64,000 bases of DNA from Bryobacteraceae bacterium CoA2 C42 (GTDB lineage Bacteria > Acidobacteriota > Terriglobia > Bryobacterales > Bryobacteraceae): NCBI GenBank assembly GCA_019931245.1, contig JAINDL010000116.1:1-64000 (forward strand), in the 5' to 3' direction. How positions within the stretch are numbered: the first letter of the stretch is position 1; the number at the start of each line of letters is the position of its first letter. The notes under the pieces are model-generated. The model had not been told where the DNA came from, did not search any database, and worked only from the letters and a program-made list of their open reading frames with translations. A program made the position numbers and the translations under genes. This document shows, piece after piece, positions 16,491 through 40,338 of this stretch.

Positions 16491-17753
16491 TTACTCGCCG
16501 CGGACGAGGTCTTCGTAGGTTTCGCGGCGACGGACGACACGCCAGTGGGCGCCGTCGACAAGCACTTCGGCGGCGCGGGGGCGGGTGTTGTAGTTGCTCG
16601 CCAGCACGAAGCCGTAAGCTCCGGCGGTGACGAGCGCGAGGAAGTCGCCGGGCAGGCACTGGGCCATCTCGCGGTCGCGGGCAAAGAAGTCGCCGGATTC
16701 GCAGACGGGGCCGACGACGTCGGCGACGAAGGTGCCGGGGAAGGCGCGGCGCAGGGGGACGATCTCGTGGTGCGCCTCGTAGAGAGAGGGGCGGATGAGG
16801 TCGTTCATCGCGGCGTCGACGATGACGAACTCTTTGGTTTCGGTTTTCTTGCGGTAGAGGACGCGGGTGAGCAGTACGCCGGCGGGTCCGACGATGGAGC
16901 GGCCGGGTTCGGTGAGCAGCATCAGGCCCAGGCCGGCGCAGCGGGCGCAAACGGCGGCGAGATGGTCGGCGACAACGGGCTCGACCTGGCCTTCGCGATA
17001 GGGGACGCCGAGCCCGCCGCCGATGTCGAGGTGGGTGATGGGGACGCCGGCCGCGCGGAGGCGCGCGATGAGGGCGAGCAGGGCGTCGAGGGCGGCCAGG
17101 AGCGGTTGGGTGTCGAGGAGTTGCGACCCGATGTGGGCGCTGACGCCTTCGAGTTGCAGGTGGGGCAGCGTGAGCGCGCGCTGATAGACGGCTTCGACGG
17201 CGGTGATGTCGATGCCGAATTTATGGTCGCGGAGGCCGGTGGAGATGTAGGGGTGCGTGGCGGCGTCGACGTGGGGGTTAACGCGGAGCGCGACGCGGGC
17301 GACTTTGTTCAGGCGGGCGGCGATGGAGCTGAGCAGGGAGAGTTCGGCCTCGCTCTCGCAGTTGAAGGAGTGGATGCCGGATTCGAGGGCGTATTCGATC
17401 TCTTCGCGCGTCTTGCCGACGCCGGAGAAGACGACCTTGGCCGGGTTGCCGCCGGCTTGGAGGACGCGGTAAAGTTCGCCGCCCGAGACGATGTCGAAGC
17501 CGGCGCCGGCTTCGGCGAGCAGGCGCAGGAGGGAGAGGTTCGAGTTGGCCTTGACGGCGTAGCAGATCTGATGCGGGAAGGTGCCGAAGCCGGCCTCGTA
17601 GGCGTGGTAGCGGGAGAGGATCGCCTGCTTCGAGTAGACGTAGAGCGGGGTGCCTTCGCGGCGGGCGATGGCTTCGAGGTCGCAATCTTCAACGAACAGG
17701 TTCTGATTGCGGTAGGCAAACGGGGGCAGGAGCATGAAAGGGGTAAATCCCAT
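16491..17753 (-). CDS. lysA: Diaminopimelate decarboxylase
   Basis: LysA removes CO2 from meso-diaminopimelate to make lysine. It is a fold-type III PLP enzyme: the PLP lysine is Lys68 in CYAVKANSN, with SGGELYR, SAHIGSQL, the GGGLGVPY glycine loop and GPVCESGD (catalytic Cys) all in order. The ATG at 17753 gives 420 residues, the usual size; an internal ATG at 17735 is possible. A longer frame reaching upstream runs into the neighbouring cytochrome gene and has no homology. It follows the cytochrome gene by 16 nt on the minus strand. Confidence 0.95.
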   Translation of the reverse strand: MGFTPFMLLPPFAYRNQNLFVEDCDLEAIARREGTPLYVYSKQAILSRYHAYEAGFGTFPHQICYAVKANSNLSLLRLLAEAGAGFDIVSGGELYRVLQAGGNPAKVVFSGVGKTREEIEYALESGIHSFNCESEAELSLLSSIAARLNKVARVALRVNPHVDAATHPYISTGLRDHKFGIDITAVEAVYQRALTLPHLQLEGVSAHIGSQLLDTQPLLAALDALLALIARLRAAGVPITHLDIGGGLGVPYREGQVEPVVADHLAAVCARCAGLGLMLLTEPGRSIVGPAGVLLTRVLYRKKTETKEFVIVDAAMNDLIRPSLYEAHHEIVPLRRAFPGTFVADVVGPVCESGDFFARDREMAQCLPGDFLALVTAGAYGFVLASNYNTRPRAAEVLVDGAHWRVVRRRETYEDLVRGE

Positions 17754-17769
17754 GGTAGCCGAGGGCGGG

Positions 17770-18417
17770 CTAGCGGCGGACGAGGGCCGTGGCGGCACCC
17801 GTGCCGGCGAGGCGGGCTCCGGCGGGGAGGCGGAGCGGTTCGCGGAGAAGTAGCCAGCGGGGGCTGGGGCGGAGGCCCCAGACGAGGGGCGTCGCGGCGG
17901 TCCAGAGTTTGCCGGGGCGGTCGATGCGGAGGGCGAGGATGGTGGTGGGCCCGGACAGGATTTGGCCGGGGCGGAGCGGCAGTATATCGCCGCGCGGAAG
18001 TGCGGCGGGGATCGGCGCGGGGGAGACGTTTGGCGGCTTGAGAAAGGCGGGGTCGCCTTCGGGGGCGCCGCCTTCGACCCATTCGGCGATGCGGACGATC
18101 TCTTCCTGCGTGAGCGAGAGGTCGTGGGCAAACTCGCCGAAGCCCTTGGCGGCGGGCCAGGGCGGCATCTGGCGGGTGAGGACCGCCTCTTTGATGGCGA
18201 CGGCCCAGGGTTTGGCTTCGGCGAAGGTGGTGAGGGCCATGGGGGCGGGGCCGGCTTCGCGATGGCAGGATTGGCAACGCTGGGCGAAGATGCGGGAGAT
18301 TTCGCGGGTCCAGGTGAGGGAGGTGGAGACGGGGTCGTGGGCCAGGGCGAGGGCGGGCGTCAGCAGCAGGATGCTGAGCCCGCCCGGAGGGAGGAGTTGC
18401 CGCGAGCGGTTAGTCAC
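17770..18417 (-). CDS. Exported cytochrome c-like protein
   Basis: The protein has a signal peptide (hydrophobic stretch to about residue 26) and one heme-binding CQSCH at residues 48-52. The RQMPPW segment likely supplies the distal methionine. The region from residue 42 to about 120 closely matches the N-terminal cytochrome domain of the upstream gene product, including the LTQ...EWV/AWADTGAEEG-type helix. The remaining 90 residues are unassigned. The GTG start overlaps the upstream stop codon, so the two genes are translationally coupled. It is probably an electron carrier for its partner. Confidence 0.75.
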   Translation of the reverse strand: MTNRSRQLLPPGGLSILLLTPALALAHDPVSTSLTWTREISRIFAQRCQSCHREAGPAPMALTTFAEAKPWAVAIKEAVLTRQMPPWPAAKGFGEFAHDLSLTQEEIVRIAEWVEGGAPEGDPAFLKPPNVSPAPIPAALPRGDILPLRPGQILSGPTTILALRIDRPGKLWTAATPLVWGLRPSPRWLLLREPLRLPAGARLAGTGAATALVRR

Positions 18418-19675
18418 CGGCGGGCTTTCGTTTGGGCTGGAGCAGGTCGCGCTCGGTGGTGCCGGGCGGGACGGAGACGTCGAAGAAGCCGATCATCATC
18501 TCCTCCCAGCTCTGCTCGCCGAAGCGGACGGGCTGGGTAGGGTCGGGATTGGCCTTGTTGTTGGCGGAGTTGTCGAAGTGGGCAACGGCCTGGATCCGGG
18601 TGCCCTTGGGGAGCAGTTTTTCGCCGGCGGGTTCGTAGATGAGCTGCCAGGCGAAATCGTAGCGGGGAACGCTGAGCAGAACTTCGGATTCGCCGGTGGG
18701 GTAGGTGGCGCGGAAGAGGAAGTCTTTGCCGCGGAGGTGCATGTGGGGCATCAGGGCCGAAAGTTTAGCGTCTTGTTGGAGGACGAGTTCGGCTTTCACC
18801 TCGTGGTTGGCGTCATGCGGGGGAATCGTGAAGCGATTGTTTTGAACGGCGAGGGTGACGACCTGTTCCTGCGGCGGCTGTTTGGCGAAGATGAGTCCGA
18901 CTTTGGAGGCGTCGGTCTGCTCTTTGCCGTTGGCGGTGTAGTGCATTTGCAGGACGATGTCGGAGCCGGCCGGGAGCTTGCGGGCTTTGCCGGGGGCGAG
19001 GATCTGGGGAGGCATGCCGGGGGCGTAGGCGGTGAGCCACTGGCCGCCGAAGATGCTTTCGCGGGGAATAAACGGTTCGCCGGGGACGGCGTTTTTGAGC
19101 CAGCGGCTGCCCGGGGGGCGGACGAAGGCGATGACATGGTGGAGGACGACGCGATTGCCGGGGCGGACCTCGGCGCATTCCACCCAGACGTCCTCTTTGT
19201 TCCCGACGGGGATGACGTAGTGGACGTACTCGATGGTGCCTTTCGCGGGAACGGTGAAGGGTTTCGGCATTTCGAGGACGAGATCGGGTTTACCGATGTT
19301 CCAGCCGTCGACGAAGGAGACGGGCTGGGGAGCGTCTTTGGGGTTTCCTTCTTCGGCGCCGGTGTCTGCCCAGGCGGTGAGGGTGTTGATTTCGGTCTGC
19401 GTCAGGGATTTGTCGTTCGAGAACTTGCCGAAGTGGGGATCGGCGTGCCAGGGAGGCATGCGGCGCGTGGAGGCGGCTTCTTTGATGGCTTTGGCGAAGG
19501 GGCGGGTGGATTTGTAGGTGAGGAAGGACATGGGGGCCGCCTCGCCGGGGCGATGGCAGCCTTGGCAATTCTTTTGCAGAATCGGTTGGACGTCCTTGTG
19601 GAACGTCACTTGCAAGGGCTTAGGTGCCGCCAGCGCGGCCACGGATAGAGATAGCATGGCTAAGAGAGATCGCAT
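18410..19675 (-). CDS. Cytochrome c fused to a copper type II monooxygenase-like domain
   Basis: A signal peptide is followed by a cytochrome c domain with CQGCH at residues 37-41 and RRMPPW as likely axial Met region. The C-terminal 280 residues show the spacing of the PHM/DBM copper monooxygenase fold: His179-His180 (LHHV), His245 (QMHY), His311-x-His313 (PHMHLRG) and Met393/394 (EEMMIGF). In peptidylglycine monooxygenase these positions ligate the CuH and CuM sites. The natural inference is a periplasmic oxygenase that receives electrons through its own heme. The substrate is unknown. Length is 421 residues. Confidence 0.8.
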   Translation of the reverse strand: MRSLLAMLSLSVAALAAPKPLQVTFHKDVQPILQKNCQGCHRPGEAAPMSFLTYKSTRPFAKAIKEAASTRRMPPWHADPHFGKFSNDKSLTQTEINTLTAWADTGAEEGNPKDAPQPVSFVDGWNIGKPDLVLEMPKPFTVPAKGTIEYVHYVIPVGNKEDVWVECAEVRPGNRVVLHHVIAFVRPPGSRWLKNAVPGEPFIPRESIFGGQWLTAYAPGMPPQILAPGKARKLPAGSDIVLQMHYTANGKEQTDASKVGLIFAKQPPQEQVVTLAVQNNRFTIPPHDANHEVKAELVLQQDAKLSALMPHMHLRGKDFLFRATYPTGESEVLLSVPRYDFAWQLIYEPAGEKLLPKGTRIQAVAHFDNSANNKANPDPTQPVRFGEQSWEEMMIGFFDVSVPPGTTERDLLQPKRKPAGD

Positions 19676-19738
19676 AAAAAGACACTACCTTCCATCATAC
19701 GGATTCCCGGATCAGATAGTTCTGGCCAGAAAAAAGTT

Positions 19739-19764
19739 TAAGCTTCGCGCTATTCTTCCGATTA
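19739..19764 (+). promoter_or_regulatory. Candidate sigma-28 (flagellar) promoter
   Basis: TAAG at 19739-19742 and TCCGATTA at 19757-19764 are 14 nt apart. The flagellar sigma-28 consensus is TAAA-N15-GCCGATAA, so this is a near match (3 of 4 and 6 of 8). It lies 41 nt upstream of flgM, where a late-class flagellar promoter is expected. Confidence 0.5.
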
Positions 19765-19805
19765 GTACTGTGAAGGCGTACTAGGTATCCGACTCGAGGT
19801 GCTCT

Positions 19806-20129
19806 ATGAAGATCAATGATTTGTATACGAGTTCGCAGGCGGCCGCGACCTACCAGAGCCAGACCCAGAAGACCGAGGGTGTGCAGGGTGCGGGGACGGG
19901 GAAGGTCAATGGAAACAAGGGAAACAGCGGCTCGGATGAGGTGAACTTATCGAGTCTGGCGAATGTGCTGCAGGATGCGGTCACCGAATCTCCCGAGAAG
20001 GCGGCGTATCTCGAGAAGTTGGCGGCCCAGTACGCCAAGGGATCCTATCAGGCGGATCCGGGTGCGGTGGCGAAATCGCTGATTGGCGAAACGTTAGCGG
20101 ACAATACGGGCGGCAAGGGTGGCATCTAG
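19806..20129 (+). CDS. flgM: Anti-sigma-28 factor FlgM
   Basis: FlgM binds the flagellar sigma factor until the hook is finished and the protein is exported. The N-terminal half is low-complexity, rich in Gly, Ser, Thr and Asn, as is usual for this natively unfolded exported protein. The C-terminal region has the family pattern KAAYLEKLAAQYAKGSYQAD followed by PGAVAKSLI. At 107 residues it is of normal size. It is the first gene of a flgM-flgN-flgK-flgL set and is preceded by a sigma-28-like promoter, which fits the known feedback loop. Confidence 0.85.
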   Translation: MKINDLYTSSQAAATYQSQTQKTEGVQGAGTGKVNGNKGNSGSDEVNLSSLANVLQDAVTESPEKAAYLEKLAAQYAKGSYQADPGAVAKSLIGETLADNTGGKGGI

Positions 20130-20149
20130 CCGCCGCTGAGTAGGCGTGT

Positions 20150-20515
20150 ATGAGTGATTTACCAAAATCCGATCTGATCAAAGTTCCTAATTTGGAACCG
20201 GTGATCGGGGATCTGTCCCAGTTTGAGACGGGCTCGGCGCTCCAGCACCTGGAGAGGGCGCTGGGGGCGCTTCGCGGGCTGGCGGGAAATCTGGAGCGCG
20301 GCAGACCGCTAGATCCAACGGAACAGCGGGCTACCGAACGGGCGTTACTCGCATTGCGGGAGCAGTTGCGGGTGGCCAATTTACTGACGCGGCAAGGTCT
20401 CGCCTACTGCCGGAACTGGTCCGATGCACTGGTGCCGCCGGCCGACTCCTACGGGAGTCAGGGCCAGGAATGCCGGAACGAGCTTTCGTATCACGCGGTG
20501 AGGCTGGACGGTTAG
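20150..20515 (+). CDS. Probable FlgN-like flagellar export chaperone
   Basis: The 121-residue, mainly helical and charged protein sits exactly between flgM and flgK, where FlgN (the chaperone for FlgK and FlgL) is normally encoded. FlgN proteins are poorly conserved, and the assignment rests mostly on position, size and helical repeat character (residues 25-85). It ends 1 nt before the flgK start. Confidence in the function is moderate. Confidence 0.5.
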   Translation: MSDLPKSDLIKVPNLEPVIGDLSQFETGSALQHLERALGALRGLAGNLERGRPLDPTEQRATERALLALREQLRVANLLTRQGLAYCRNWSDALVPPADSYGSQGQECRNELSYHAVRLDG

Positions 20516-20516
20516 G

Positions 20517-21881
20517 ATGGGAAGTATTTCTTCAGCAATGATGTCGACCGCAGAGGCGATGCGGGTAATTCAGCGCCAGGTGGGGGTGGTGCAGAACAAC
20601 ATTGTGAACGCTTCGACGCCGAACTACGCACGTCTGGATCAGGCGACGATGGCCAACCGCTATAACCCGAACTCGGAGTCCTCTTCAGGCGGGATCAGCG
20701 TGGCGCCCCTGATTTCGGGGCGGGACCGGTTTCTCGAAGGGGCGGTGTGGGAGCGACAGTCCGCGGCCGGATACTCCGATCAGTCGTTGCGCGGTCTGCG
20801 GGCGATTGAAGCGGCGGTCTCGGTGACGGCGGATGATGGGATCCCGGGAGCGCTGAGCAAGTTTTTTAACAGCGCCGCGCAGCTGGCCCTCTCGCCGAAT
20901 TCGGATCTTGCCCGTCAAGCGGTGCTCGACCGGGCGCGGACGGCGGCGCTGAGCTTCAATGAGGCCGCCACCGAGTTTGGGACCTTAACGGCGAGAGCGG
21001 GGACGGAGCTGGGCTACGCCGTGCGGGACATCAATGCCGTGGCCAAGGAGATTGCGGCCATTAACGGCCAGCGCAAGGGCGATTTTCGCAATGTCACCGA
21101 TGCCGGGCTGGATTCTCGGCTACACGAGGCCCTCGAGAAGCTCTCCACGCTGGTGGATCACAATACGCTGACCCAGGAGGATGGGTCCGTGGTCGTTTTT
21201 GCCTCCGGGCAGGTTCCGCTCGTGGCAGGGGATCAGGCCTATCCGCTCTCGACCTCTTTCAGCAATGGGCAGTATCAGATTGTCGATGGCCGGGGTGAGA
21301 GTGTTACAGGCACGGTCGCGACGGGCAAGTTGGGAGCGCTACTTGAGATGCGCAACCAAACCATGCCGGCCTACAGCGCCCAGCTCGATACGCTTGCCCG
21401 GGGCTTCGCCGACCAGGTAAACGGCATTCTGGCAGGGGGCCTTGCGGCGAACGGATTGCCGCCCGTGCAGAACCTCTACACATATGACGCGGTTACCGGG
21501 GCCGCAGCCACCTTAGCCGTCACCGGAATGACGACGGGGGGATTGGCGGCGGCAGGAGCCGGGGAGCCTGGCGGCAACGCCAATGCCAACAGGTTGGCGC
21601 AGCTTTCGAACAAACCAGCCATCAACGGTCTGACCCTGTCCGGGTACTACGGTGCCATGGCAACGGGCCTCGGAACACAGGTTGAATCGGTCCGGGGCCG
21701 GAATTCGTCCGATCAACAACTGCTGTTGCAGGCTCGAACCTTGCGCCAGCAGGTCTCGGGCGTTTCGGTGGACCAGGAGGCGGCCAAACTGCTGGAATAT
21801 CAGCGCGGATTCCAGGCCGTTGGACAGGTCATGGGAATCCTCAATGAGATGACCGACACACTGTTCACCATGCTGCGCTAG
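20517..21881 (+). CDS. flgK: Flagellar hook-associated protein 1 FlgK
   Basis: FlgK joins the hook to the filament. The N-terminal helix motif QVGVVQNNIVNASTPNYAR is diagnostic of axial flagellar proteins, followed by RDRFLEGAVWERQS. The C-terminal coiled region SVDQEAAKLLEYQRGFQA matches the end of FlgK and FlgE. At 454 residues it is slightly short for FlgK, mainly in the variable middle domain. No signal peptide is present because export uses the flagellar type III apparatus. It starts 1 nt after the upstream chaperone-like gene. Confidence 0.9.
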   Translation: MGSISSAMMSTAEAMRVIQRQVGVVQNNIVNASTPNYARLDQATMANRYNPNSESSSGGISVAPLISGRDRFLEGAVWERQSAAGYSDQSLRGLRAIEAAVSVTADDGIPGALSKFFNSAAQLALSPNSDLARQAVLDRARTAALSFNEAATEFGTLTARAGTELGYAVRDINAVAKEIAAINGQRKGDFRNVTDAGLDSRLHEALEKLSTLVDHNTLTQEDGSVVVFASGQVPLVAGDQAYPLSTSFSNGQYQIVDGRGESVTGTVATGKLGALLEMRNQTMPAYSAQLDTLARGFADQVNGILAGGLAANGLPPVQNLYTYDAVTGAAATLAVTGMTTGGLAAAGAGEPGGNANANRLAQLSNKPAINGLTLSGYYGAMATGLGTQVESVRGRNSSDQQLLLQARTLRQQVSGVSVDQEAAKLLEYQRGFQAVGQVMGILNEMTDTLFTMLR

Positions 21882-21895
21882 GCAGGGAGACCGTC

Positions 21896-22801
21896 ATGAT
21901 CAAAAATCTGAATACCCGGGACGAGCTGTTCTTAAGCAATCTACAGCGGATTCAGGGCAGGATCGACCGGGCGAACGCACAGGTCTCGAGTGGGCTGCGG
22001 GTGACGGCGGCTTCCGACGCGCCGGATGAGATCGGTCCGCTTCTGCAGAGCCGGGCAGAGCTTGCGCTTACTGAGCAGGCCCAGTCGAACCTGAACCGGG
22101 TGAAGGGCGAGGTCGATTCCGCCGAGGCCGCCCTGCGCAGCGTGATTCAGTTGGCCGAGAGGGTCAGGGTACTGGGAACCCAGGGGCAAACCGGGACGCA
22201 GACAGCGGTGACGCGGGAGACGATCGCCGCGGAGCTACAGGGCGTCTTCCGCCAGATCGTCGGCGCGGCGAACTCGAACTACGATGGCAGGTTTCTGTTT
22301 GCCGGGAACAACGATCAGGTGGAACCCTACACCTTCGACCTCTCGCAGCCGGATGGGGTCACTCCCTACGCCGGTACCGCGGCCACGCGGAGTGTCCCGG
22401 ATGCCAACGGCGTGCTGATTCCCATTGGCCGCAGCGGACAGGAGATCTTCAATTCGCCAACGCCAGGGAAGAACCTGTTCGGGGCCATCAATTCGCTCCG
22501 TCTTGCTCTTCTGGCTAACGACGATGCGGCTTTGTCGGTCGCCAATGAGAATCTCGGTTCGGCGCTGAACCATGTCAACGTCCAACTTACCCGTTACGGA
22601 CATACCCAAAACGAGATTGCCACTGCGATGGAGATTGCCACCCAGCGCACCCTGGATCTCAAGGGCAAAATCTCCGCTATTCAAGACACCGATCTGGCGG
22701 ATGCGATTCTGGAGCTGCAGACCGGGCAGACCGCCCGTCAGGCAGCTCTGCAGGCCAAAGGACAGGAGGATCGCCGCACGCTGTTCGATTTCCTGCGCTA
22801 A
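21896..22801 (+). CDS. flgL: Flagellar hook-associated protein 3 FlgL
   Basis: FlgL is the second hook-filament junction protein and is related to flagellin. The N-terminal helix contains the flagellin-like block RANAQVSSGLRVTAASDAPDE, and the C-terminal helix contains the ISAIQDTDLADAILELQTGQ block. The length (301 residues) is typical. It follows flgK by 14 nt. Flagellin itself, fliA and the motor genes are not in the window, so the rest of the system must lie elsewhere. Confidence 0.9.
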   Translation: MIKNLNTRDELFLSNLQRIQGRIDRANAQVSSGLRVTAASDAPDEIGPLLQSRAELALTEQAQSNLNRVKGEVDSAEAALRSVIQLAERVRVLGTQGQTGTQTAVTRETIAAELQGVFRQIVGAANSNYDGRFLFAGNNDQVEPYTFDLSQPDGVTPYAGTAATRSVPDANGVLIPIGRSGQEIFNSPTPGKNLFGAINSLRLALLANDDAALSVANENLGSALNHVNVQLTRYGHTQNEIATAMEIATQRTLDLKGKISAIQDTDLADAILELQTGQTARQAALQAKGQEDRRTLFDFLR

Positions 22802-22819
22802 GACGTCTTCGCCTTGGTC

Positions 22820-23883
22820 ATGTTGCCCCTCCTCGCTTTACCCCTGGCCCCGGTGTTCCGGGTCGACGTTCCCTCGCCGACCGCGAACGAAGCGCAATCC
22901 CGCGGACAAAGCGCAATCCAAGATCTGGTTCGCGCAGGGTGGCTGGTGCGCCTGGCTGCCGGTGCAGGGCGGGAGCAGTATCTGGAGGCGGGGTGCCGAT
23001 GCGGTCTGGGTTCGCCAGAAGCCGCTCGACGGGGGGCTGCGCGGCACGCCGGGGCGGGCCGATGTCTGGGCCGATGAGGAAACAGCCTGCGCCGTGCTGT
23101 TGGAGGACCGGCGCTTGGCCGTTGCTTGCCTCGAATGGCGGGGTGATGGCCACTCCCTGGCGTGGCGGCCGGCAGAGATTCCGATGGACGGCCGATTGGA
23201 GACGGCGACCGTTGCCCGGGACGGGCGGGGCACGAGATGGGTCGCCGACGGTCTGGGGCCGCAAATGTGGGCGCAGCGTTCGACGGACAGCTGGCGGCGG
23301 GCCGTGAAGGTCAGCGCGACACCGGCGGCGGAGGATGACATCTGCGCAGTCGTCGCCGTGAGCGACGGGGTGGGGTCATCTGGTGCGATCCGGCGGCTGA
23401 TACGGTCTGGTTCCGGTGGCGGCGGGACGGAGCGCTACGGTGGGAGCCGACCGAGGTGGTTGAGCAGGGTGGAAAGACGGCAGACGATCATATCCGGGCA
23501 TCGGCATCGACCGATAGCCAGTTACTGGTGGCCATGAAGAATCCCGGGGATCGGATTGGCACCCCGCAGCTTGTCCTACGGGAATGGAGCCCCGCGGGAA
23601 AGTGGAGCAGCCGGCCGTATGCTCCAAGGACCAGTGTGGAGGAGTTAACCCGGCCCGCCGTGCTACTGGAGGGCGTACCGGAGCGGATTTTTCTTCTGCA
23701 CGGCCGATACCCAAAAGCAGGCCGCAAATTTGTCCGCCGGGAAGACGGCCGCGAGGAAGTGCTGCCTCCCGTCAGCGGTCTAAACCACGTAACCGGACCC
23801 AAGGCCGCTTCCCGGCCGGGCATCCGTGGATTGTGCTGGCCTCCGACCGGGAAGGCCACATTCATGAGGTACAGCTCCATTAA
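22820..23883 (+). pseudogene. Decayed secreted protein gene with three frame disruptions
   Basis: An ATG at 22820 begins a signal-peptide-like segment (MLPLLALPLAP). Continuous protein-like sequence can be followed only by changing frame three times: +1 at 22890-22919, caused by a 19-nt duplication; -1 at the G run near 23372-23375; and one more between about 23790 and 23815. The joined reading has repeated beta-strand blocks (KIWFAQGGWCAWLPVQGG, then DTVWFRWRRDGALRW and WIVLASDREGHIHEV), suggesting a beta-propeller-like exported protein. It ends at TAA 23881-23883. Two of the shifts could be sequencing errors; the duplication looks like real decay. Confidence 0.65.
22890..22919 (+). repeat. 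19-nt duplication, AAGCGCAATCC twice
   Basis: AAGCGCAATCC occurs at 22890-22900 and 22909-22919. Removing one 19-nt unit restores a single frame running from the signal peptide into the propeller-like body, so the duplication explains the first frameshift. Confidence 0.7.
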
Positions 23884-24404
23884 AAACCTGCCGGAGCCAG
23901 GCAAAAAGTTCCGGTTTGGAGGAGTGACCGCAGCATATACTCGGTGTCATCCCAGTCTGCGTCCTTTGCCGCGGGATGTCCTTGGCCCGGAAAGGCCAGT
24001 TCCGCGATGGAACTCACCGGGGAATCGGGCAGCGTCCGATGTCCCGGCTTCAGGCCCTCCTTTCGTGCCGCCTCCAGTACGCCGCCTCGTTCGGCGTAAG
24101 GCAGGCCGGAACCCAATGCCGGGCCTGGCCCCGCAAAAGCCTGCTTGCTACACAAAAACATCACCACATCCCCGCCTCCGGCCAGCCACCGCTGCCACCT
24201 CTTCTCAGGCCCGCTGCCGTAGCTCAAATTCACAACGACGGCGCTCAAAAAACGAGGCAGCAACCCGGCACCCTGCCCGTCGCGGCGGGAGCCTCCCATC
24301 GCCCGGCCCCTCAGAGAACCCCGCAACGCGACATCGCGTCGTTTCGGCCATCGTGGTCCTCCCTCGGCCATCGATACACGGCCCCCACGGCACCTGCAGC
24401 CAGC
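23884..24404. other. About 520 nt with no supported gene
   Basis: The only sizeable open frame is on the minus strand (23880-24371, 163 codons). Its codon use and composition do not match its neighbours, and I recognise no family in it. Neighbouring frames show fragments of protein-like sequence, so this may be debris of a second decayed gene. The stretch coincides with a switch in strand composition from G-rich to C-rich on the plus strand. Confidence 0.4.
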
Positions 24405-25253
24405 CTATACCGTGCAGGCCTCAATCGCCTCGAGCAGCGCCTCCCGCGCACTCTTCACAACCGGCGTGTACTCGTGGCAAATATACCCCGTGTAGCCCAA
24501 ATCGGCAATCTTCTTGCAGACAGCCTTATAGTTGATCTCCTGATCGACACTCAACTCATGCCGCCCCGGATTCCCCGCCGTATGGAAGTGCCCGAACCAC
24601 TGCATGTTCTGCTCAATCGTCCGGATAATGTCGCCTTCCATGATCTGCATATGGTAGATGTCATACAGCAGCTTCACCCGCGGCGAACCGACGCGCTTGC
24701 AAACCTCCACGCCCCACGCCGTCCGGTCGCACTGGTAATCCGGATGGTTCACCTTGCTGTTCAGTAACTCCATACACAGCGTGACGCCCTTATCCTCAGC
24801 GTATTTCTTCACGGCGTTCAACAGCTTCACCGTGTTCTCAATCCCCTGCTCATCCGTCTTGCCCCGCCGGTTGCCCGACAGCATGATCAGATTCGGCGCC
24901 CCGGCCGCCGCCGCCGCATCGAGCAGCTCCCGCGTGTTCTTGATAATCTCCGGGTGCAGCGCCGGATCGTTGCAGCCATCGCTCAGCTTGCTGCTGCCTG
25001 GCACGAGCGTCGGCACAATCCCGTACTTCTTCAACGTCGGAAACCGATCCGGGCCCACCAGGTCATAACCCACCAGCCCCAACTCCGCCGCCAACCGGCA
25101 TTGGCCGTCAAAATCCAGGTTCGACCCGCGGAAAACCCCGCCGCAAACCCCCTGCTTCAACCGCCCCTTTTTCGCAGGAAGCGTCTGCGCCGATCCCGTC
25201 GTTGCAAGCGCTGCGCCCGCGGCCACCGCAGTGGCAAAACTCCGTCTGTTCAT
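24405..25253 (-). CDS. Tat-exported hydroxypyruvate isomerase-like TIM-barrel protein
   Basis: The N-terminus is a twin-arginine signal (NRRSFATAVAAGAALA), so the protein is exported folded. The body matches the xylose isomerase-like / hydroxypyruvate isomerase superfamily: a metal-binding CMELLNSK segment, KLLYDIYHMQIMEGD, HFHTAGNPGRHEL and a final YICHEYTP block, which provide the usual Glu, Asp/His and Glu metal ligands. Length is 282 residues from the ATG at 25253; an ATG at 25274 would add seven residues. It is divergent from the small gene at 25273. The substrate is a sugar or sugar acid but cannot be named. Confidence 0.85.
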   Translation of the reverse strand: MNRRSFATAVAAGAALATTGSAQTLPAKKGRLKQGVCGGVFRGSNLDFDGQCRLAAELGLVGYDLVGPDRFPTLKKYGIVPTLVPGSSKLSDGCNDPALHPEIIKNTRELLDAAAAAGAPNLIMLSGNRRGKTDEQGIENTVKLLNAVKKYAEDKGVTLCMELLNSKVNHPDYQCDRTAWGVEVCKRVGSPRVKLLYDIYHMQIMEGDIIRTIEQNMQWFGHFHTAGNPGRHELSVDQEINYKAVCKKIADLGYTGYICHEYTPVVKSAREALLEAIEACTV

Positions 25254-25272
25254 GCGCTCGATAATATCATTC

Positions 25273-25536
25273 ATGGGCTTCGCACTCTGGATCGACAATC
25301 AACAGGCCTGGGCCGCCGGCACCCACGAATACCGCCCTATGGGCGCCGCCGTCATCGCCGAAAACGGCTGCTTCCGCGCTCGCGACTTCTCCCGCGACCG
25401 CCGCGCCCCCGGCCGCCGCCACCCCAGCTTCATCGGCCTGTTCGGCTCGCTCGAAGAGGTCAACGTCTTCCTCCGCAAACGCCCCGCCGCCCGCCGCCCG
25501 CCGAGCGACGCCATTCGCCAGCTCCTCGACGACTAA
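25273..25536 (+). CDS. Small uncharacterised protein (87 aa)
   Basis: An open frame from ATG 25273 to TAA 25536 encodes a basic protein beginning MGFALWIDNQQAWAAGTHEY. The C-rich third codon position matches neighbouring real genes. Aromatic and hydrophobic residues alternate plausibly in the first half, while the second half is Arg/Pro-rich. It diverges from the isomerase-like gene and its stop overlaps the czcA stop by four bases. No family is recognised. Confidence 0.5.
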   Translation: MGFALWIDNQQAWAAGTHEYRPMGAAVIAENGCFRARDFSRDRRAPGRRHPSFIGLFGSLEEVNVFLRKRPAARRPPSDAIRQLLDD

Positions 25537-28500
25537 GCCTCCACCCGCGCCCCGTCCTCCTCCTCAAAGCTCTCGGCCGGACCCAAAATCTCCCGGCCCT
25601 CAAAAATACCGTACAGCGTCGGCACCACAATCAGCGTCAGCAGCGTCGAGGTGATCAACCCACCAATCACCACAATCGCCAGCGGCCGCTGCACCTCGCT
25701 CCCCGGCCCCGTCGCAAACAAAAACGGCACCAGTCCCAGCGCCGCCACCGTCGCCGTCATCATCACCGGCCGGAACCGCAGCTTGGTCCCTTCGGCAATC
25801 GCCGTCCGCTGGTCCATGCCCTCCTCCCGCAGCTTCCGGATGTAGGAAACCAGCACGACGCCATTCAGCACCGCAATCCCCCACAGCGCGATAAACCCCA
25901 CCGAAGCCGGCACCGACAGATACTCGCCCGAGACAAACAACGCCACAATCCCGCCAATCGAAGCAAACGGCAGCACCGTAATAATCAACCCGGCAAACCG
26001 CAGCGAGCCAAACAACAGGAACAACAAAAAGAAGATCGCCCCAATGGTAATCGGCACAATAATCCGCAAGTGGTTCAGCGCCCGCTCCATGTTCTGAAAC
26101 TGCCCGCCCCACTCAATCGTGTACCCCGTCGGCAGCTGCACCTCCCGCTCCACCCGCTCCTGCAGCTCCTTCACAAACCCCCCCAGGTCCCGGTCCTGCA
26201 CATTGATTCCGATCACAATCCGCCGCTTCGCCGTATCCCGGTTGATCTGCGCCGGACCTTCCTTCACGCTCACCGTCGCCAGCGCCTTCATCATCACCTT
26301 CGATCCGGACGGCGTGTTGATCAGCAGATTCTCCACATCCTCCCGGCTGTTGCGCAGCGTCTCCGGGTAGCGCACCACCAGTTGGAATCGCCGCTCGCCC
26401 TCGTAGATCTCCGTCGCCACCTTGCCGCCAATCGCCGTCTCAATCACATCGTGAATATCGGCCGCGTTCAGGTCATGCCGCGCAATCGCCTGCCGGTCGA
26501 TATCGATGTTCAGATACTGCTGCCCACCCACCCGGTCCACCCGCGAATCACGCATCCCCCGAATCGTCGACGCCACCTTGGCCACCTCGTTCGCCTTCCC
26601 GATCAGCATCTCGAGATCATCACCAAAGATCTTCACCGCCACATCGGCACGCACCCCCGTCACCATCTCGTCCACCCGGTCCGAAATCGGCTGCGCCATC
26701 ACCAGATTCACCCCCGGCACGCTCGCCAGCCGCCGCCGAATCTCCTCGGCAATCGTATCCTGCGTCATCCCCTTCGGCCGCCGCTCCACCGGCGCGAGCG
26801 TCGCAATCACGTCCGCCTCGTTCTGCCCCGCCGCGTCCGCCGGCGATTCCCCCCGCCCGATCCGCGACACTACCCGCTCCACCCCCGGCACCCCCCGCAC
26901 CGCCCGCATCGCCGCCATCTCCATCTTGATCGACTCCTCGAGCGAGATGTTCGGCACCCGGTCAATGTTCGGGGAAATCGACCCCTCCTTCATCTCCGGA
27001 ATAAACGCCGTCCCCAGATACGGGAACAACGAAACCGACGCGACAAAGGCGATCATCACCGTCACAATCGTCTTGTACGGATTCCCCAGCGCCAACCCCA
27101 ACAGCCACTCAAACGGCCGCTTCAGCATCCGCACCAAAAACGTATCGTGCTCGGCGCCCCCCTTCAAGAGCAGGAACGACAGCACCGGCGACAGCGTCAG
27201 CGACAGCACCAGCGAAATCCCCAGCGCAATGGCAATCGTATACGCCAGCGGAGAGAACATCTTGCCCTCCATGCCCTCAAGCGTCATCAGCGGCAGGAAC
27301 ACGAGAATGATGATGCCAATGCCGAAGATCACCGGCGTACCCACCTCCATCACCGCCTCCCGCACAATCTGCAGCCGGTCCTGCCGCCCGCCGTGCGCCA
27401 GCTTGGCGAACACATTCTCCACCACCACCACCGACCCGTCCACCATCAGCCCGATCGCAATCGCCAACCCGCCCAGCGACATCAGGTTCGCCGACAACCC
27501 GTACTGATTCATCACGAGAAACGTCAGCAGCGGCGTCAATACCAGCGTCGCAATCACAATCACGCTGCTCCGCAAATCCCCCAGAAAAAGGAACAGGATC
27601 ACGATCACCAGCACAATCCCTTCCACCAGCACCTTCGCCACCGTCATCAATGCCGCGTCCACCAGCTCCGACCGGTCATAGTAAGGCACAATCTGCAGCC
27701 CCGCCGGCAGCATCCCCTTCTCGTTGATCTCCTTCACCCGGGCCTTGATCTTCTCCACCACCGCCTTGGCGTTGCCGCTGGCGATCATGATCACAATGCC
27801 TCCGGCGGCCTCCGTGTAGCCGCCCTTGATCATGGCCCCGTAGCGCACCTCCTCCCCCAGCTGCACCGTCGCCACCTGCCGCAGATAAACCGGCGTGCCC
27901 CGCACCTCTTTCACGATGATCGAGCGAATATCGTCCAGATTTCGCACCAGACCAATGCCGCGAATCAGATACTGCTCGGCGTGCTGCCGCAGAATCCCGC
28001 CGCCCGCGTTCGCGTTGTTCCGCGCCAGCGCCTGCGGTACCTCCTGCAACCCGATGCCGTAGTGCAGCAGCCGGTCCGGGTCCACCAGCACCTGATACTG
28101 CCGCACATACCCACCCGTCGAGTTGATCTCCGCCACCCCGGGAATCGAACGCAGCAGCGGCCGCACCACCCAGTCCTGCACCATCCGCCGGTCTACCAAC
28201 TCTTCCTTGGTCAGCGCCCGCTCGCCGTCCCCCGGCTTCTCGAGCGTGTACTGATACACCTCGCCCAGCGCCGTCGAAACCGGCCCCAGCACCGGCGTCA
28301 CATCCTCCGGCAGCCGGCCCCGCACCTCCGCCAGCCGCTCCATCAGCAGCTGCCGCGCAAAGTAAACATCGGTTGAGTCCGTAAACACCAGAGTGATCAG
28401 CGACAGACCCGGCTTGTTCAGCGACCGCATCTCCGTCAACCCCGGCAGCCCCGTCATCGCAATCTCCACCGGCACCGTGACAAACCGCTCCACCTCCTCG

Positions 28501-28673
28501 GGCGACCTCCCCGGCGCCTCGGTGGCAATCTGCACCTGCACATTCGTCACATCCGGGAAAGCGTCCACCGATAGCTTCCGCGACGCATCGAGACCAAACA
28601 CGAGCAGAATCAGCGCGACCACCACCACCACAATACGCTGCTCTAAACAGGCACGGACCAGAGCACCCAGCAT
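25533..28673 (-). CDS. czcA: Heavy-metal efflux RND pump, CzcA/CusA type
   Basis: This is the inner-membrane proton antiporter of a tripartite metal efflux system. The N-terminal TM segment is followed by VDAFPDVTNVQVQI, the metal-RND marker. The periplasmic EVYQYTLE region and the SLGGLAIAIGLMVDGSVVVVEN block in the fourth TM segment hold the proton-relay acidic residues. Twelve TM segments in two halves fit the 1046-residue length. The stop overlaps that of the preceding small plus-strand gene. It is the last gene of a minus-strand operon with the fusion protein and outer-membrane factor; the metal (Co/Zn/Cd or Cu/Ag) is not decided by the sequence. Confidence 0.92.
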   Translation of the reverse strand: MLGALVRACLEQRIVVVVVALILLVFGLDASRKLSVDAFPDVTNVQVQIATEAPGRSPEEVERFVTVPVEIAMTGLPGLTEMRSLNKPGLSLITLVFTDSTDVYFARQLLMERLAEVRGRLPEDVTPVLGPVSTALGEVYQYTLEKPGDGERALTKEELVDRRMVQDWVVRPLLRSIPGVAEINSTGGYVRQYQVLVDPDRLLHYGIGLQEVPQALARNNANAGGGILRQHAEQYLIRGIGLVRNLDDIRSIIVKEVRGTPVYLRQVATVQLGEEVRYGAMIKGGYTEAAGGIVIMIASGNAKAVVEKIKARVKEINEKGMLPAGLQIVPYYDRSELVDAALMTVAKVLVEGIVLVIVILFLFLGDLRSSVIVIATLVLTPLLTFLVMNQYGLSANLMSLGGLAIAIGLMVDGSVVVVENVFAKLAHGGRQDRLQIVREAVMEVGTPVIFGIGIIILVFLPLMTLEGMEGKMFSPLAYTIAIALGISLVLSLTLSPVLSFLLLKGGAEHDTFLVRMLKRPFEWLLGLALGNPYKTIVTVMIAFVASVSLFPYLGTAFIPEMKEGSISPNIDRVPNISLEESIKMEMAAMRAVRGVPGVERVVSRIGRGESPADAAGQNEADVIATLAPVERRPKGMTQDTIAEEIRRRLASVPGVNLVMAQPISDRVDEMVTGVRADVAVKIFGDDLEMLIGKANEVAKVASTIRGMRDSRVDRVGGQQYLNIDIDRQAIARHDLNAADIHDVIETAIGGKVATEIYEGERRFQLVVRYPETLRNSREDVENLLINTPSGSKVMMKALATVSVKEGPAQINRDTAKRRIVIGINVQDRDLGGFVKELQERVEREVQLPTGYTIEWGGQFQNMERALNHLRIIVPITIGAIFFLLFLLFGSLRFAGLIITVLPFASIGGIVALFVSGEYLSVPASVGFIALWGIAVLNGVVLVSYIRKLREEGMDQRTAIAEGTKLRFRPVMMTATVAALGLVPFLFATGPGSEVQRPLAIVVIGGLITSTLLTLIVVPTLYGIFEGREILGPAESFEEEDGARVEA

Positions 28674-28677
28674 CGTC

Positions 28678-29844
28678 TCAGCTCCCCTGCGTCGCCAGCC
28701 GCCGCCGCTCGTTGTTCAAGTGAAACGCGCCGTCCAGCACCAGGCGCTGCCCGGCCGGCCACGGCTCCTCCAGCACGCGCGCGTCCGCATGCTCGGCCCC
28801 CAGCTTCACCGTCCGCATCACAAACTCGCCCGGCGCCTTCTCGATAAAGACGTAGTCCTTGTCCTCCTCCCGCACCACCGCCGTCAACGGAATCACCGTC
28901 TCCTGCCGCGGGTTGTCTTTGAGCTCCATCACGGCCAGCATCGCCGGCTTGTACCGCCCCCGCGGGTTCGCCAGATCCATCCGGGTCCGCACCGTCCGCG
29001 TCTCGGGGTCGATGATCGCACTGACGAAACTCAACCGGCCGCGGATCTTCTCGCCCGGAAACGCCGAAACCTCCGCCTCCACGGACTTGCCCATCTCAAT
29101 AGCTCCCCCCTGCTGCTCCGGCACATCGGCCACCAGCCACACCCGCGACAGATCCGCAATCACAAACAACGTATCCGCCGGCTGCACCACCTGCCCGGTC
29201 GTCACCTTCCGCTCAAGCACCGTACCGTCAATCGTCGCCACGATCTGCGTCAGGCTGTTCACCGTCCGCCCCTGCTGCAGCTGCGTAATCGCCTCTTCAC
29301 TCATCCCCAACACCCGCAGCTGATCGTGCGCCGAAGAGAGCTCCGCGTTGGCCTCGAGCAGTTCCGCCTCCCGCCGCTGCACCTCGGCCGCGCCAATCAC
29401 ATCGGCCTTCAAAAGCTGCTGGGCCCGCGCCGCCGCCCGCTGCATCAGCCCCTGCTGCGAAACCGCCTTGACGAAGGCAAACTGCGCCGTCGACAGCTCC
29501 GTGCCGTAGAGCTTCGCCAACACCTGCCCCCGCTTGACGGTCTGGCCCGGAAACACCTCCAACTCCATCACCCGGCCCGTGGCCGGCGCGCTCACCCGCG
29601 CCATCCGCGTCTCGTCTGCCTCCACGCGCCCGGAAACCCGCAGGCTCGCCGTCGTCGCCTTCACCACCGGTACCCCCACGGTCAGCTGCCGCAACAGATC
29701 CCCGTTTGGCCGCACTGCCATCGGGTCCTTCGCCGGCACCGGCGCCTCGGCCGGCTTGGCCGCCTCCTTGGGCAACATCCCACAACCCGCCAGCAGGGCA
29801 CAAAGCCCCCATCCACCCAACCATCCCGCCGATCGTTTCCTCAT
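28678..29844 (-). CDS. czcB: Periplasmic adaptor (membrane fusion) protein, CzcB type
   Basis: The adaptor links the inner-membrane pump to the outer-membrane channel. A lipoprotein signal ends in LLAGC with the acylated Cys at residue 21. The lipoyl/barrel-sandwich halves are GRVMELEVFPGQTVKRGQ and GTVLERKVTTGQVVQ, flanking a helical hairpin (residues 115-185). The C-terminal beta-barrel and membrane-proximal domains follow. It is 4 nt upstream of czcA and overlaps czcC by 4 nt, so the three are one transcript. Confidence 0.9.
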   Translation of the reverse strand: MRKRSAGWLGGWGLCALLAGCGMLPKEAAKPAEAPVPAKDPMAVRPNGDLLRQLTVGVPVVKATTASLRVSGRVEADETRMARVSAPATGRVMELEVFPGQTVKRGQVLAKLYGTELSTAQFAFVKAVSQQGLMQRAAARAQQLLKADVIGAAEVQRREAELLEANAELSSAHDQLRVLGMSEEAITQLQQGRTVNSLTQIVATIDGTVLERKVTTGQVVQPADTLFVIADLSRVWLVADVPEQQGGAIEMGKSVEAEVSAFPGEKIRGRLSFVSAIIDPETRTVRTRMDLANPRGRYKPAMLAVMELKDNPRQETVIPLTAVVREEDKDYVFIEKAPGEFVMRTVKLGAEHADARVLEEPWPAGQRLVLDGAFHLNNERRRLATQGS

Positions 29845-31091
29845 TTCTGCTCCGGATCCACTGCGCGCAACTGTTCAATCTCAATCAGCGCGGCCTGCAG
29901 GTCGTACTGCGCGCTCAAGTAGTCCGTGCGCACCGTACGCAAAACCCGCTGCGCGTCCAACACGTCCAGAATGCCCCGCTCCCCAAACCGGTAGGCCGCC
30001 TCCGCCGCCTTCACCGCCGCCTCGGCTTCCCGCAGCACGCCATCTTCAAAGGCCACCAACTGCTGCGTGGCAACCTCGTACATCCCGTACGCCCGTTCCA
30101 GGTTCGCGTTGATCTCCAGCCGCCGCAGATCGGCCAGCGCCGAAGCCTGCCGCAATCCCGCCGCCGCCTCGCCAATCGGGCCCTCGCGCTTATTCCACAA
30201 CGGTAGCGGCACCGAAATCCCGGCGCGATAAAACTGCAGATCCGGCTGGTGCTCGTACTCAGAGTGCGCCGTCAACCCCGGCCGCCGCAGCGCCTGCTCC
30301 GTCCGCAACCGCCCCTCCGCCCGCCGAATCTCCGCCTTCGCCACCGCGAGAGACGGATGACGCGCCGCCACCTCCTCGCGCAGCGACTCAAGCGCCGGCA
30401 GCGGCTGCCGCGTGTCCAACTGCCCTTCCAACTCCACGTTCGCCCCCAGCGGCGCCCCCACCACCGTCCGCAGATACGCGAGCGCGTTCGTGTACCGCAG
30501 CTGCGCGCTGGTGGCCAGTGTCCGCGCCGTCGCCACCTCCGCATCCGCCCGGATCAACTCCAGCTTCGCCGCCTCCCCCACCTCCACCTGCACCTGAATC
30601 CGTCGGCGCAAATCTTCAATCAGCTTCAGATTCTCCATCGCCAGAACAATTTCGTTCCGCCGCCGCAGCACCTGGAAAAAGGCCTGCTTCACCATCGCCC
30701 GCACCGCCAACCGCGCCTCCTGCAACGCGTACAGGCTCCCCTCCCGTCCCGCCTCCGCCGTGCGCAGACGCGCCGCCCGCACCGCCGGCAGCTCAATCGG
30801 CTGGTGAATGCTGTAGTGCTGCAGCAAGCCCCGCGCCCCCGGGCCCGTCAACGCGTTCGGCCGCGAAAACTGCGGACCCACCATCGTCGTCATCTCCGGG
30901 TTCGGATAGGCGCGAGCCGTTACGATTCCCGCCTCAGCACCATCCCGCTGCGCCGACGCCACCCGCAATTGCGGATTATGCTCCAAAGCCAGCGCCAGGG
31001 CCCGCTCCAACGTCAACCGTTGCGGCGCCTGAGCAACGATCAGTCCTGCGCCGGAAAGGCAAACCACCACGAGGCGGGAAAGTAATCGCAT
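29841..31091 (-). CDS. czcC: Outer-membrane channel, TolC/CzcC family
   Basis: This is the outer-membrane factor of the metal efflux system. A signal peptide (hydrophobic to about residue 20, ending AQA) precedes a LTLERALALALEHNPQL start typical of the OEP family. Two copies of the family's long helical repeat can be seen, each ending with a GERGILDVLDAQR-type turn in the second half. Length is 416 residues, usual for CzcC. It is the first gene of the operon; its start lies in an AT-rich gap that also holds the ridA-like promoter. Confidence 0.9.
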   Translation of the reverse strand: MRLLSRLVVVCLSGAGLIVAQAPQRLTLERALALALEHNPQLRVASAQRDGAEAGIVTARAYPNPEMTTMVGPQFSRPNALTGPGARGLLQHYSIHQPIELPAVRAARLRTAEAGREGSLYALQEARLAVRAMVKQAFFQVLRRRNEIVLAMENLKLIEDLRRRIQVQVEVGEAAKLELIRADAEVATARTLATSAQLRYTNALAYLRTVVGAPLGANVELEGQLDTRQPLPALESLREEVAARHPSLAVAKAEIRRAEGRLRTEQALRRPGLTAHSEYEHQPDLQFYRAGISVPLPLWNKREGPIGEAAAGLRQASALADLRRLEINANLERAYGMYEVATQQLVAFEDGVLREAEAAVKAAEAAYRFGERGILDVLDAQRVLRTVRTDYLSAQYDLQAALIEIEQLRAVDPEQK

Positions 31092-38017: not shown

Positions 38018-38591
38018 CCAGATAGACATGATTGATGGTAATTTGGCCGGTTTCGGCATCGGTATACCGCGTGGCCGCGGCACCGCGGGTGGTCACGGTG
38101 ACAAACGAGGCTCGCGAGGCGGGTGTCCGCAACTCAAGCGTCAGTTTGCCGTCCGTAATTTCGACCCCGGAATCGCTCGTCTCCACCACCGGCGCTGCCT
38201 CGGCCACGGCGACCGGCTCGGTGAGTTTCTTCGCGCTTACGGCAAACCACCAGCCGGTGCTCGCCACCACGGTGAGCGAAGCAACCAGCGCGGCCGCGCG
38301 CCAGTTCAACCAGCGCTCCTCGGCCGGCTCCGGGTGCCGGTAGGCGGCGATCGCCTCGGACGCCTCGAGGCCCAACCGAATATTGGCGCTCATCTCGGAC
38401 GCCAGCGGCTCCCAGGCGACCGGCGGCAGCATCTCGCCTTTGAGCTCCGTCGATAGCATTTTGCGAAACGAAGCCAACTCGGCCGTACAGGCCGGACAGC
38501 CGGAGACGTGGCGGCCCACCGTCCACTGCTTGAACCACGGAAGGTCTCGGCCGGCAAACAGGGCCAGATCGGCAAGATCAGGATGTTGCAT
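38010..38591 (-). CDS. Zinc-finger anti-sigma factor
   Basis: The protein is 193 residues. The zf-HC2 anti-sigma motif H-x3-C-x2-C is seen at His28, Cys32 and Cys35 (RHVSGCPAC). One TM segment is at about residues 97-119 (ALVASLTVVASTGWWFAV), leaving the N-terminal domain in the cytoplasm to hold the sigma factor. The C-terminal 75 residues are periplasmic. The ATG overlaps the sigma-factor stop as TGATG, a tight coupling typical of such pairs. Confidence 0.85.
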   Translation of the reverse strand: MQHPDLADLALFAGRDLPWFKQWTVGRHVSGCPACTAELASFRKMLSTELKGEMLPPVAWEPLASEMSANIRLGLEASEAIAAYRHPEPAEERWLNWRAAALVASLTVVASTGWWFAVSAKKLTEPVAVAEAAPVVETSDSGVEITDGKLTLELRTPASRASFVTVTTRGAAATRYTDAETGQITINHVYLDD

Positions 38592-39142
38592 CAGGCTCTC
38601 CTCCTTTCGATATACCGCTTGAACTTGATGCGGGCGTTGGCGATGTGGCTGCGGACGGTCGCCATCGAACAACCCAGGCGCTGCGCCACCTGCTCGGCGG
38701 GAAGATCTTCGACGTCACGCAGCAGCAGCGCGGTCCGCTCCTTCACCGTCAGCAGCCGCAGACCGTCTTCGAGATACTTCTGTTGTTCGCCCCGGAGCAG
38801 CTGGCTCTCCGGACTCCGCTCGGCGGGCACCCGCAGGGGATCGACCAGAGCGTCAATTTGGGTGAAATTCACCCGGCCGTGGCGCCGGAGAAAGTCAATC
38901 GCCGTGTTGTGCGCAATACGCGACAGCCATTGGGCCGCCTTTTGCGTGTCCTTCAACTGGTCGCCGCGCTGCAGCGCCTTGATGAAGGCCTCCTGCGTTA
39001 AGTCCTGCGCATCCGCCACGTTACCGACAATCCGATAGATGATTAAGAACACGCGGCGCAGGTTGTCCTGCACGAAGCGGTTCTGCCGCTCCGCCTCCTC
39101 CGGGCTATTGACGCCGGTTGAGTCGCGGGTGGGGTCGGGCAT
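38591..39142 (-). CDS. ECF-type RNA polymerase sigma factor
   Basis: Region 2 is seen as VFLIIYRIVGNVADAQDLTQEAF, with the QDLTQEAFIKAL promoter-melting helix, and region 4 as LTVKERTALLLRDVEDLPAEQ followed by MATVRSHIANARIKF. There is no region 1.1 or 3, as is normal for ECF factors. The ATG at 39142 gives 183 residues; an upstream in-frame GTG at 39172 is possible. The anti-sigma gene overlaps its end, so signals at the envelope should control its activity. Confidence 0.92.
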   Translation of the reverse strand: MPDPTRDSTGVNSPEEAERQNRFVQDNLRRVFLIIYRIVGNVADAQDLTQEAFIKALQRGDQLKDTQKAAQWLSRIAHNTAIDFLRRHGRVNFTQIDALVDPLRVPAERSPESQLLRGEQQKYLEDGLRLLTVKERTALLLRDVEDLPAEQVAQRLGCSMATVRSHIANARIKFKRYIERRRA

Positions 39143-39227
39143 GCGGATGTTTTCCTGAGCCGTATGAATCACCTTACACGCCGAGACGGTTAGGGTCCCG
39201 GAAGCGTGGAGGGTTTTTTTCCGGCGC

Positions 39228-39233
39228 TATTCT
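39228..39233 (+). promoter_or_regulatory. -10-like TATTCT before the thiolase gene
   Basis: TATTCT begins 12 nt before the ATG at 39240. The transcript would be leaderless or nearly so. A run of T residues lies about 15 nt upstream, but no clear -35 is seen. Confidence 0.35.
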
Positions 39234-39239
39234 GAGTAT

Positions 39240-40328
39240 ATGAGACCCGTTGGGATCATCGGCACCGGAAAAACCCCGTTTGGGGCCTTCCCCGGCCAGG
39301 GCATTCGCTCGCTGGCGCAAACGGCTGTTGCCGCGGCGCTCGCCGATGCCGGGCTCTCCCCCGGACAGGTGGAGGCCTTTTACCTCGGCAACTTCGCAGG
39401 GCCCAGCTTTACGGGACAAAGTCATTTGGCTCCCTACGTGGCCGGCGCCTGCGGGCTGGCCGGGATTCCGGCCACGCGGTTTGAAGACGCCTGCGCCTCC
39501 TCCGGCGTTGCCTTCCACCACGCCTGGCAGGCGGTGGCGGCCGGGGTGTACGACCTGGTGGTCGTCTGCGGGGTCGAAAAGATGACCAACCAGCCAACCG
39601 AACGCGTCGGCGAGATTCTCGCCATGGCGGGCGACGTCGAGCAGGACCGGCAAACCTTCCCGGAGCTGTTTGCCCGCATCGCGCGCGCCCACATGGCCCG
39701 GTACGGGACGACGCGGGAGCAGATGGCCGCCGTGGCGGTAAAGAACCACCGGCACGGCTTCAACAACCCGTACGCGCACCTGCGCAAGCTGATCACGCTC
39801 GAACAGGCGCTGGCGGGCCGCGTGATCGCCGACCCGCTGACGCTCTATGACTGCTCGCTGGTCTCCGATGGCGCTGCCGCCGTGGTTCTGGCGCCCGAGG
39901 GCCGCTGCCGCGTCCTCGGTATCGCCCAGACCTCGGACGCGGTGGCGCTGGCCGGCAAGCCGGACCTGACGCGTCTGCCCGCCGTGGGGCGCTCGGCCGA
40001 AAAGGCCTACCGGATGGCCGGGGTCGCCGCCGCCGATATCCAGTTTGCCGAAGTGCACGACTGCTTCACCATCGCCGAGATCCTCGCGATGGAGGAGCTT
40101 GGCTTCTGCCCGCGCGGCGAAGGCGGCGCTTATGCCGCCAGCGAAGCCCGGCCCGTTAACCGCAGCGGCGGCCTGAAGAGCAAGGGCCACCCGGTGGGGG
40201 CGACCGGGGTGGCGCAGATTGTGGACGTCGTCGGACAGTTGCGCGACGGGCTCGGCGACCTGGGTCTGGCGCAGAATCTGGGCGGCACAGGCGCGACCAG
40301 TGTGGTGACAGTGTTAGGAAGGGTATAA
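39240..40328 (+). CDS. Thiolase, SCP2/acetyl-CoA acetyltransferase type
   Basis: Thiolases exchange acyl groups between CoA and beta-ketoacyl-CoA in fatty-acid or ketone metabolism. The nucleophile Cys85 lies in EDACASSG. His in HDCFTIAE and His in SKGHPVGATG complete the active site. The 362-residue length and the lack of the extra loop place it in the SCP2-like group. It is 10 nt upstream of an aminotransferase and probably co-transcribed. Substrate chain length is not evident. Confidence 0.85.
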   Translation: MRPVGIIGTGKTPFGAFPGQGIRSLAQTAVAAALADAGLSPGQVEAFYLGNFAGPSFTGQSHLAPYVAGACGLAGIPATRFEDACASSGVAFHHAWQAVAAGVYDLVVVCGVEKMTNQPTERVGEILAMAGDVEQDRQTFPELFARIARAHMARYGTTREQMAAVAVKNHRHGFNNPYAHLRKLITLEQALAGRVIADPLTLYDCSLVSDGAAAVVLAPEGRCRVLGIAQTSDAVALAGKPDLTRLPAVGRSAEKAYRMAGVAAADIQFAEVHDCFTIAEILAMEELGFCPRGEGGAYAASEARPVNRSGGLKSKGHPVGATGVAQIVDVVGQLRDGLGDLGLAQNLGGTGATSVVTVLGRV

Positions 40329-40338
40329 CTAAAAGCTG

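Follow-up and report, generated by a model that had tools for sequence, protein, structure and literature searches.

A probable unitary pseudogene of a secreted beta-propeller protein next to the flgL gene of a Bryobacteraceae genome

Directly 3' of the flgM-flgN-flgK-flgL genes of genome G000 (FlgM, FlgK and flagellin domains; the label flgN is by position only) and on the same plus strand lies a gene that appears to encode a secreted protein and whose reading frame is interrupted three times. Has this gene decayed, is it intact in the organism and broken only in the assembly, or does it retain a part of its function? The stretch analyzed here (hereinafter the window) spans 64 kb (G000:C12:1-64000) of a 6.07-Mb assembly that comprises 237 contigs and is 97.7% complete. 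The closest relative compared (G010) belongs to the same genus, is 93-95% identical over three long aligned segments and, likewise after flgL, contains an intact open reading frame (ORF) of 348 codons (L032:961-2007). The locus is very probably a unitary pseudogene: intact homologues are found in relatives, the frame is broken, no second intact copy was found in the assembly, and constraint is relaxed. The secreted propeller protein that it encoded was, on this reading, dispensable and probably has to do with glycans.

The locus and its three frame breaks

The features of the locus are as follows (positions in the window).

21896-22801, plus strand: flgL, intact, upstream neighbor; Flagellin_N domain, 94% amino acid identity to G010
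22820-23883, plus strand: very probable unitary pseudogene of a secreted seven-bladed beta-propeller protein; intact orthologue (348 amino acids) at the same site in G010, three-break alignment, matched in the genome by two pieces only
22820-23077, plus strand: 85-codon ORF from the original start; the first ~27 codons are native (signal-peptide-like start and N-terminus)
22881-22899, plus strand: unit 1 of the 19-nt tandem; two of its letters are derived compared with unit 2 and with six intact relatives
22900-22918, plus strand: unit 2 of the 19-nt tandem; agrees with the six intact relatives at the two sites that distinguish it from unit 1
23366-23378, plus strand: second frame break; 1 nt fewer than the G010 copy at 23373, in a G-rich run
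23797-23812, plus strand: third frame break; 1 nt fewer than the G010 copy at 23805
23884-24404, no strand: intergenic stretch of 521 bp, unmatched in 20 relatives; the genes on either side are 203 bp apart in G010

The frame opened by the ATG at 22820 is 85 codons long and closes with a stop at 23077; beyond it, family similarity goes on in further registers up to the stop of the family frame at 23881-23883. An earlier note, made from the sequence of the window, had attributed the first break to a 19-nt duplication and had predicted two further shifts, in a G-run near 23373 and near 23800. The comparison with an intact orthologue that it called for bears out all three: the alignment to the G010 copy at the same site places a 19-nt excess at 22883 and single-nucleotide gaps at 23373 and 23805. 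The duplication is not fresh, given that the two units (22881-22899 and 22900-22918) form an imperfect tandem with 17 of the 19 positions identical. A period-19 tandem of such quality was found in none of 60 first-order Markov windows of 64 kb, a lenient control because real coding DNA repeats more than such windows do. Tandems with periods of 12 to 60 and ~90% identity occupy 9 places in the window, compared with 0-2 per simulated window (n=20), and the remaining eight of these places have a period of 12 or 15.

The order of some of the lesions can be read from the repeat. Each of the six intact congeners compared (6/6) has a single 19-nt unit, and the duplication has gathered two changes in 38 nt, both in unit 1. 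Furthermore, both units encode alanine where all 54 aligned members of the family have proline 25. Being common to both units, the change of proline 25 in the simplest reading predates the duplication; given that this proline is invariant in the family, the duplication probably followed an earlier lesion, and constraint was, as judged from these letters, probably already slipping when it arose, although a working gene may have tolerated the proline-25 change alone. Under this scenario, the tandem would have originated through replication slippage or unequal exchange, probably once constraint had begun to slip, and unit 1 would then have acquired two more changes; the single-base losses are undatable.

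Downstream of the pseudogene, a minus-strand gene for a TIM-barrel protein is followed by an AcrB-type efflux gene with an HlyD-type partner. The intervening tail (23884-24404) was considered as a recognizable gene and rejected: its minus-strand ORF has no Pfam match, and the tail itself is unmatched in the 20 relatives. An RNA gene was likewise rejected, with no Rfam family reaching the gathering threshold within 19600-25400. Promoter and terminator signals (1 and 3 found compared with 0.9 and 4.1 in shuffled sequences) include none worth reporting, and a repeat search of the window yielded nothing resembling a mobile element at the pseudogene site. The composition switch that had been noticed beside the gene is a change in the sign of the GC skew near 24000, from +0.14 in 23001-24000 to -0.24 in 24001-25000, where minus-strand genes begin; a link to the decay was not found. 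The minus-strand genes at 16491-19675 show positive skew and those at 24405-31091 strongly negative skew, so skew does not track gene orientation throughout the window.

Synonymous divergence from G010 varies along the window as well. In the block 19806-24404, the third codon positions that differ amount to 25-37% in flgM, flgN, flgK and flgL and to 33% in the pseudogene, compared with ~5-15% in most genes of the 1-16 kb and 24-38 kb portions; the right edge of this block is sharp, at 24404. The flgM-flgL block could be either an imported allele block, i.e., a result of recombination, or a region with a locally fast synonymous rate. A second block of raised third-position divergence spans 39240-46746 (0.08-0.26, with 6 of the 7 ORF spans above 0.15). 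At 62456-62675, G010 contains ~680 bp more, in five pieces, possibly reflecting a deletion in the window genome or an insertion in G010.

Decay, sequencing error or partial function

Substitutions were assigned to the window branch and to the G010 branch by codon position, using a codon alignment of the pseudogene with G010 that is one codon short at the start. With G016 as the outgroup, the counts at positions 1/2/3 are 33/22/38 on the window branch and 10/14/40 on the G010 branch (Fisher p 0.009); taking the majority of five outgroups instead gives 32/27/46 and 10/13/56, respectively (p 0.0003). The counts on the window branch only just agree with uniform rates (p 0.12 and 0.06), so the gene probably still worked during part of this branch, and a loss part-way along it fits best. 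The five other intact copies have 182 invariant columns in common, of which 31 differ in the window and 12 differ in G010. When each of these five copies is left out in turn, the respective values are 10/180, 3/173, 4/174, 8/178 and, for G006, the most distant copy, 36/206; because G006 is intact, this measure alone is not decisive. The family frame in the window contains no in-frame stop, which indicates that decay is not far advanced.

An assembly or sequencing error, such that the organism has an intact gene and all breaks are artefactual, has to be weighed against decay given that the assembly consists of 237 contigs, that two of the breaks are single-base differences, one of them in a G-rich run, and that, according to PMC11017572, purported pseudogenes are in many cases real genes, with technical artefacts as a possible source of some. 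However, gaps relative to G010 that are not multiples of three number three in the pseudogene and zero in all 41 other ORF spans, a set chosen by us that omits 1-1320, 38084-39239, 58011-59156, 62389-64000 and smaller gaps; at least three of these spans (16491, 57186 and 59157) have a wrong frame or end, so their gap counts were kept and their codon-position figures were not used. Outside the ORF spans, frame-breaking gaps relative to G010 occur at 186, 210, 17737, 20135 and 31119 and in a cluster at 62456-62569; the gap at 17737 lies upstream of the likelier start of lysA (17735) but would be inside the gene if the start is at 17753. The two differences between the tandem units also are not expected from a simple assembly copy, and errors would hardly account for the excess of first- and second-position substitutions or for the 31 changed residues among 182 invariant ones. 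Thus, an error appears highly improbable, and the decay that the earlier note had proposed is supported by the intact G010 orthologue, by the constraint that is relaxed on the window branch only, compared with G010, and by the 41 spans free of such gaps.

Slightly less probable still is a partly functional locus, one from which a short peptide of the N-terminus is secreted, part of the propeller is made or recoding restores the complete frame. The persistence of the 85-codon ORF with its signal-peptide-like start and the lack of in-frame stops in the family frame are compatible with this possibility, but the three separate breaks argue against it, as do the first- and second-position changes, which on the window branch are spread over all three thirds of the gene, and the changes of proline 25 (invariant in 54/54 members) and of the nearly invariant S183 and Q185.

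The decay of a unitary pseudogene also agrees with the distribution of the gene. A match was found in 9 of the 19 genomes of the genus, eight of which have a single open match, with only G000 having the gene in pieces; completeness is at least 93% in six of the ten genomes that lack a match and 58-83% in the other four. Given this patchy presence, absence of the gene is tolerated in the genus, which suggests, with much less certainty, that the protein is dispensable in the lineage of the window. In G000, the search for a second copy returned only the two broken pieces, in an assembly that is 97.7% complete and whose uncovered part could contain a further copy. A FliS-like gene was detected in 4 of the 7 congeners searched (L168-L171, from G009, G001, G017 and G006), always divergently oriented beside the intact propeller gene; the match in G001 contains a stop. 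The propeller gene hence has two flagellar neighborhoods, one beside the FliS-like gene and the other after flgL, as in the window and G010.

The intact protein, its fold and its neighbors

A profile built from an alignment of ten intact proteins was used to scan the genome contigs and identified 179 stretches encoding a relative. The best 80 of these 179 stretches, comprising 78 loci, were retained, so all neighbor counts below concern the closer relatives; the titles of these 80 include Acidobacteria, Bacteroidota genera, Planctomycetaceae, Opitutaceae, Actinomycetes and others. For the alignment, 56 of the 78 loci were examined; two (L085 and L130), in which the joined match was not open, were left out, and 54 aligned members remained. 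K28, D167, H218, K234 and R272 are among the invariant residues.

The structure model of the G010 protein (mean pLDDT 94.8) contains 28 strands and, by count, seven blades, in agreement with the description of the gene as secreted and propeller-like in the earlier note; on the basis of this model, we confidently predict that the family consists of seven-bladed beta-propellers, i.e., circular arrays of four-stranded blades. In the copies of Pfam and NCBIfam that were searched, the intact protein has no family to itself, and a PDB sequence search was likewise unproductive. Single members match Reg_prop (8/54), BNR_2 (3/54) and four other Pfam families (1/54 each), and these matches indicate at most a propeller. 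A full-text literature search for the motif DKPQSK returned no paper. The top Foldseek rows are GH145 proteins, with BT3686 first (E 1.1e-08, TM 0.57). In a second structural comparison, CylK (Z 27.3) and Photorhabdus lectins (Z 25.5-26.9, rmsd 2.7-3.0) are accompanied by GH145 proteins (Z 22.6-24.6), the FoRham1 lyase (Z 23.5-23.6) and the PL25 ulvan lyase (Z 23.1-23.3), and the same list includes propellers of the Elongator (Elp123), histone-methylase (Swd1) and spliceosome complexes at Z 22-24. The matches to propellers extend over the full length of the protein. Given that propellers with several unrelated functions score alike, the fold does not reveal a function.

Some indication of a function comes from gene neighborhoods. 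Receptor genes were searched for with seven query proteins (E 1e-8) in the flanks of the 78 loci. A gene for a SusC-, TonB- or Oar-like receptor is present in the flank of 19 of the 78 loci, as a raw count, and a SusD gene in 10; at 59 loci there is no receptor gene in the flank. In L092, L099, L100, L114 and L122, the receptor gene is kilobases away rather than adjacent. Nine Bacteroidota loci (L102, L106, L110, L111, L112, L115, L117, L118 and L127) have susC and susD just upstream of the propeller gene, as confirmed by Pfam for L102, L112, L115, L117 and L127; these nine belong to 14 loci with Bacteroidota titles in L102-L127, or to 22 when the more distant L131-L143 are included. An OMP_b-brl_4 receptor gene adjoins the propeller gene in L056 (G016), L065 (G015) and L095. 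Neither in the window nor in G010 is there a receptor gene beside the propeller gene. Separation from a receptor was considered as the cause of the loss and rejected: G010, G009 and G001 keep the propeller gene intact without an adjacent receptor, so such separation does not by itself explain the loss.

SusC/SusD systems in general function in glycan use. By this association, the likeliest role of the intact protein would be the binding or cleavage of a glycan. Much less surely, the protein may work together with TonB-dependent outer-membrane receptors in binding or processing a glycan, with SusC/SusD as the proposed partners in Bacteroidota and receptors of the OMP_b-brl_4 type in Acidobacteriota. 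The complete proposal, namely that the family with the DKPQSK-W and ADDH motifs comprises undescribed secreted seven-bladed propellers that are glycan-binding or glycan-cleaving partners of TonB-dependent receptors, is a tentative one, possible but on the whole doubtful.

Comparison with known propellers and pseudogenes

The decay event is ordinary but clean because the intact copy at the same site allows the lesions to be counted and partly ordered. Of wider interest than the decay is the un-named propeller family, which is represented in several phyla and in part encoded next to genes for SusC/SusD or other TonB-linked receptors: its members are candidates for binding or acting on glycans, and the copies of Pfam and NCBIfam that were searched contain no family for them.

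The catalytic histidine is posterior in BT3686 (His48) and anterior in FoRham1 (His85). The GH145 rhamnosidase BT3686 and the rhamnose-glucuronate lyase FoRham1 are both seven-bladed propellers, and FoRham1 belongs to BNR_4, as described in PMC8377490. The present family shares with these enzymes the propeller fold (5mum, Z 24.6, 327 residues aligned, rmsd 4.1), a likeness at the level of the fold alone, and some of its Bacteroidota relatives adjoin SusC/SusD; in contrast to them, it shows no match to BNR_4 (PF15892; 0/54 at E 0.01), and the identity is 10-12%. The Photorhabdus PLL/PHL lectins, which have conserved sugar-binding sites between the blades, provide the best size-matched rows (6rgg_B, Z 26.9, 293 residues aligned, rmsd 2.7), again a likeness of the fold only, whereas their identity to the propeller family is ~14%.

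As for the locus itself, it resembles frameshifted bacterial pseudogenes in general (e.g., the survey PMC522871) in its intact homologue in relatives, its small insertions and deletions and its relaxed constraint. It differs from these in nothing substantial, and here the order of two changes is readable from both units of the repeat.
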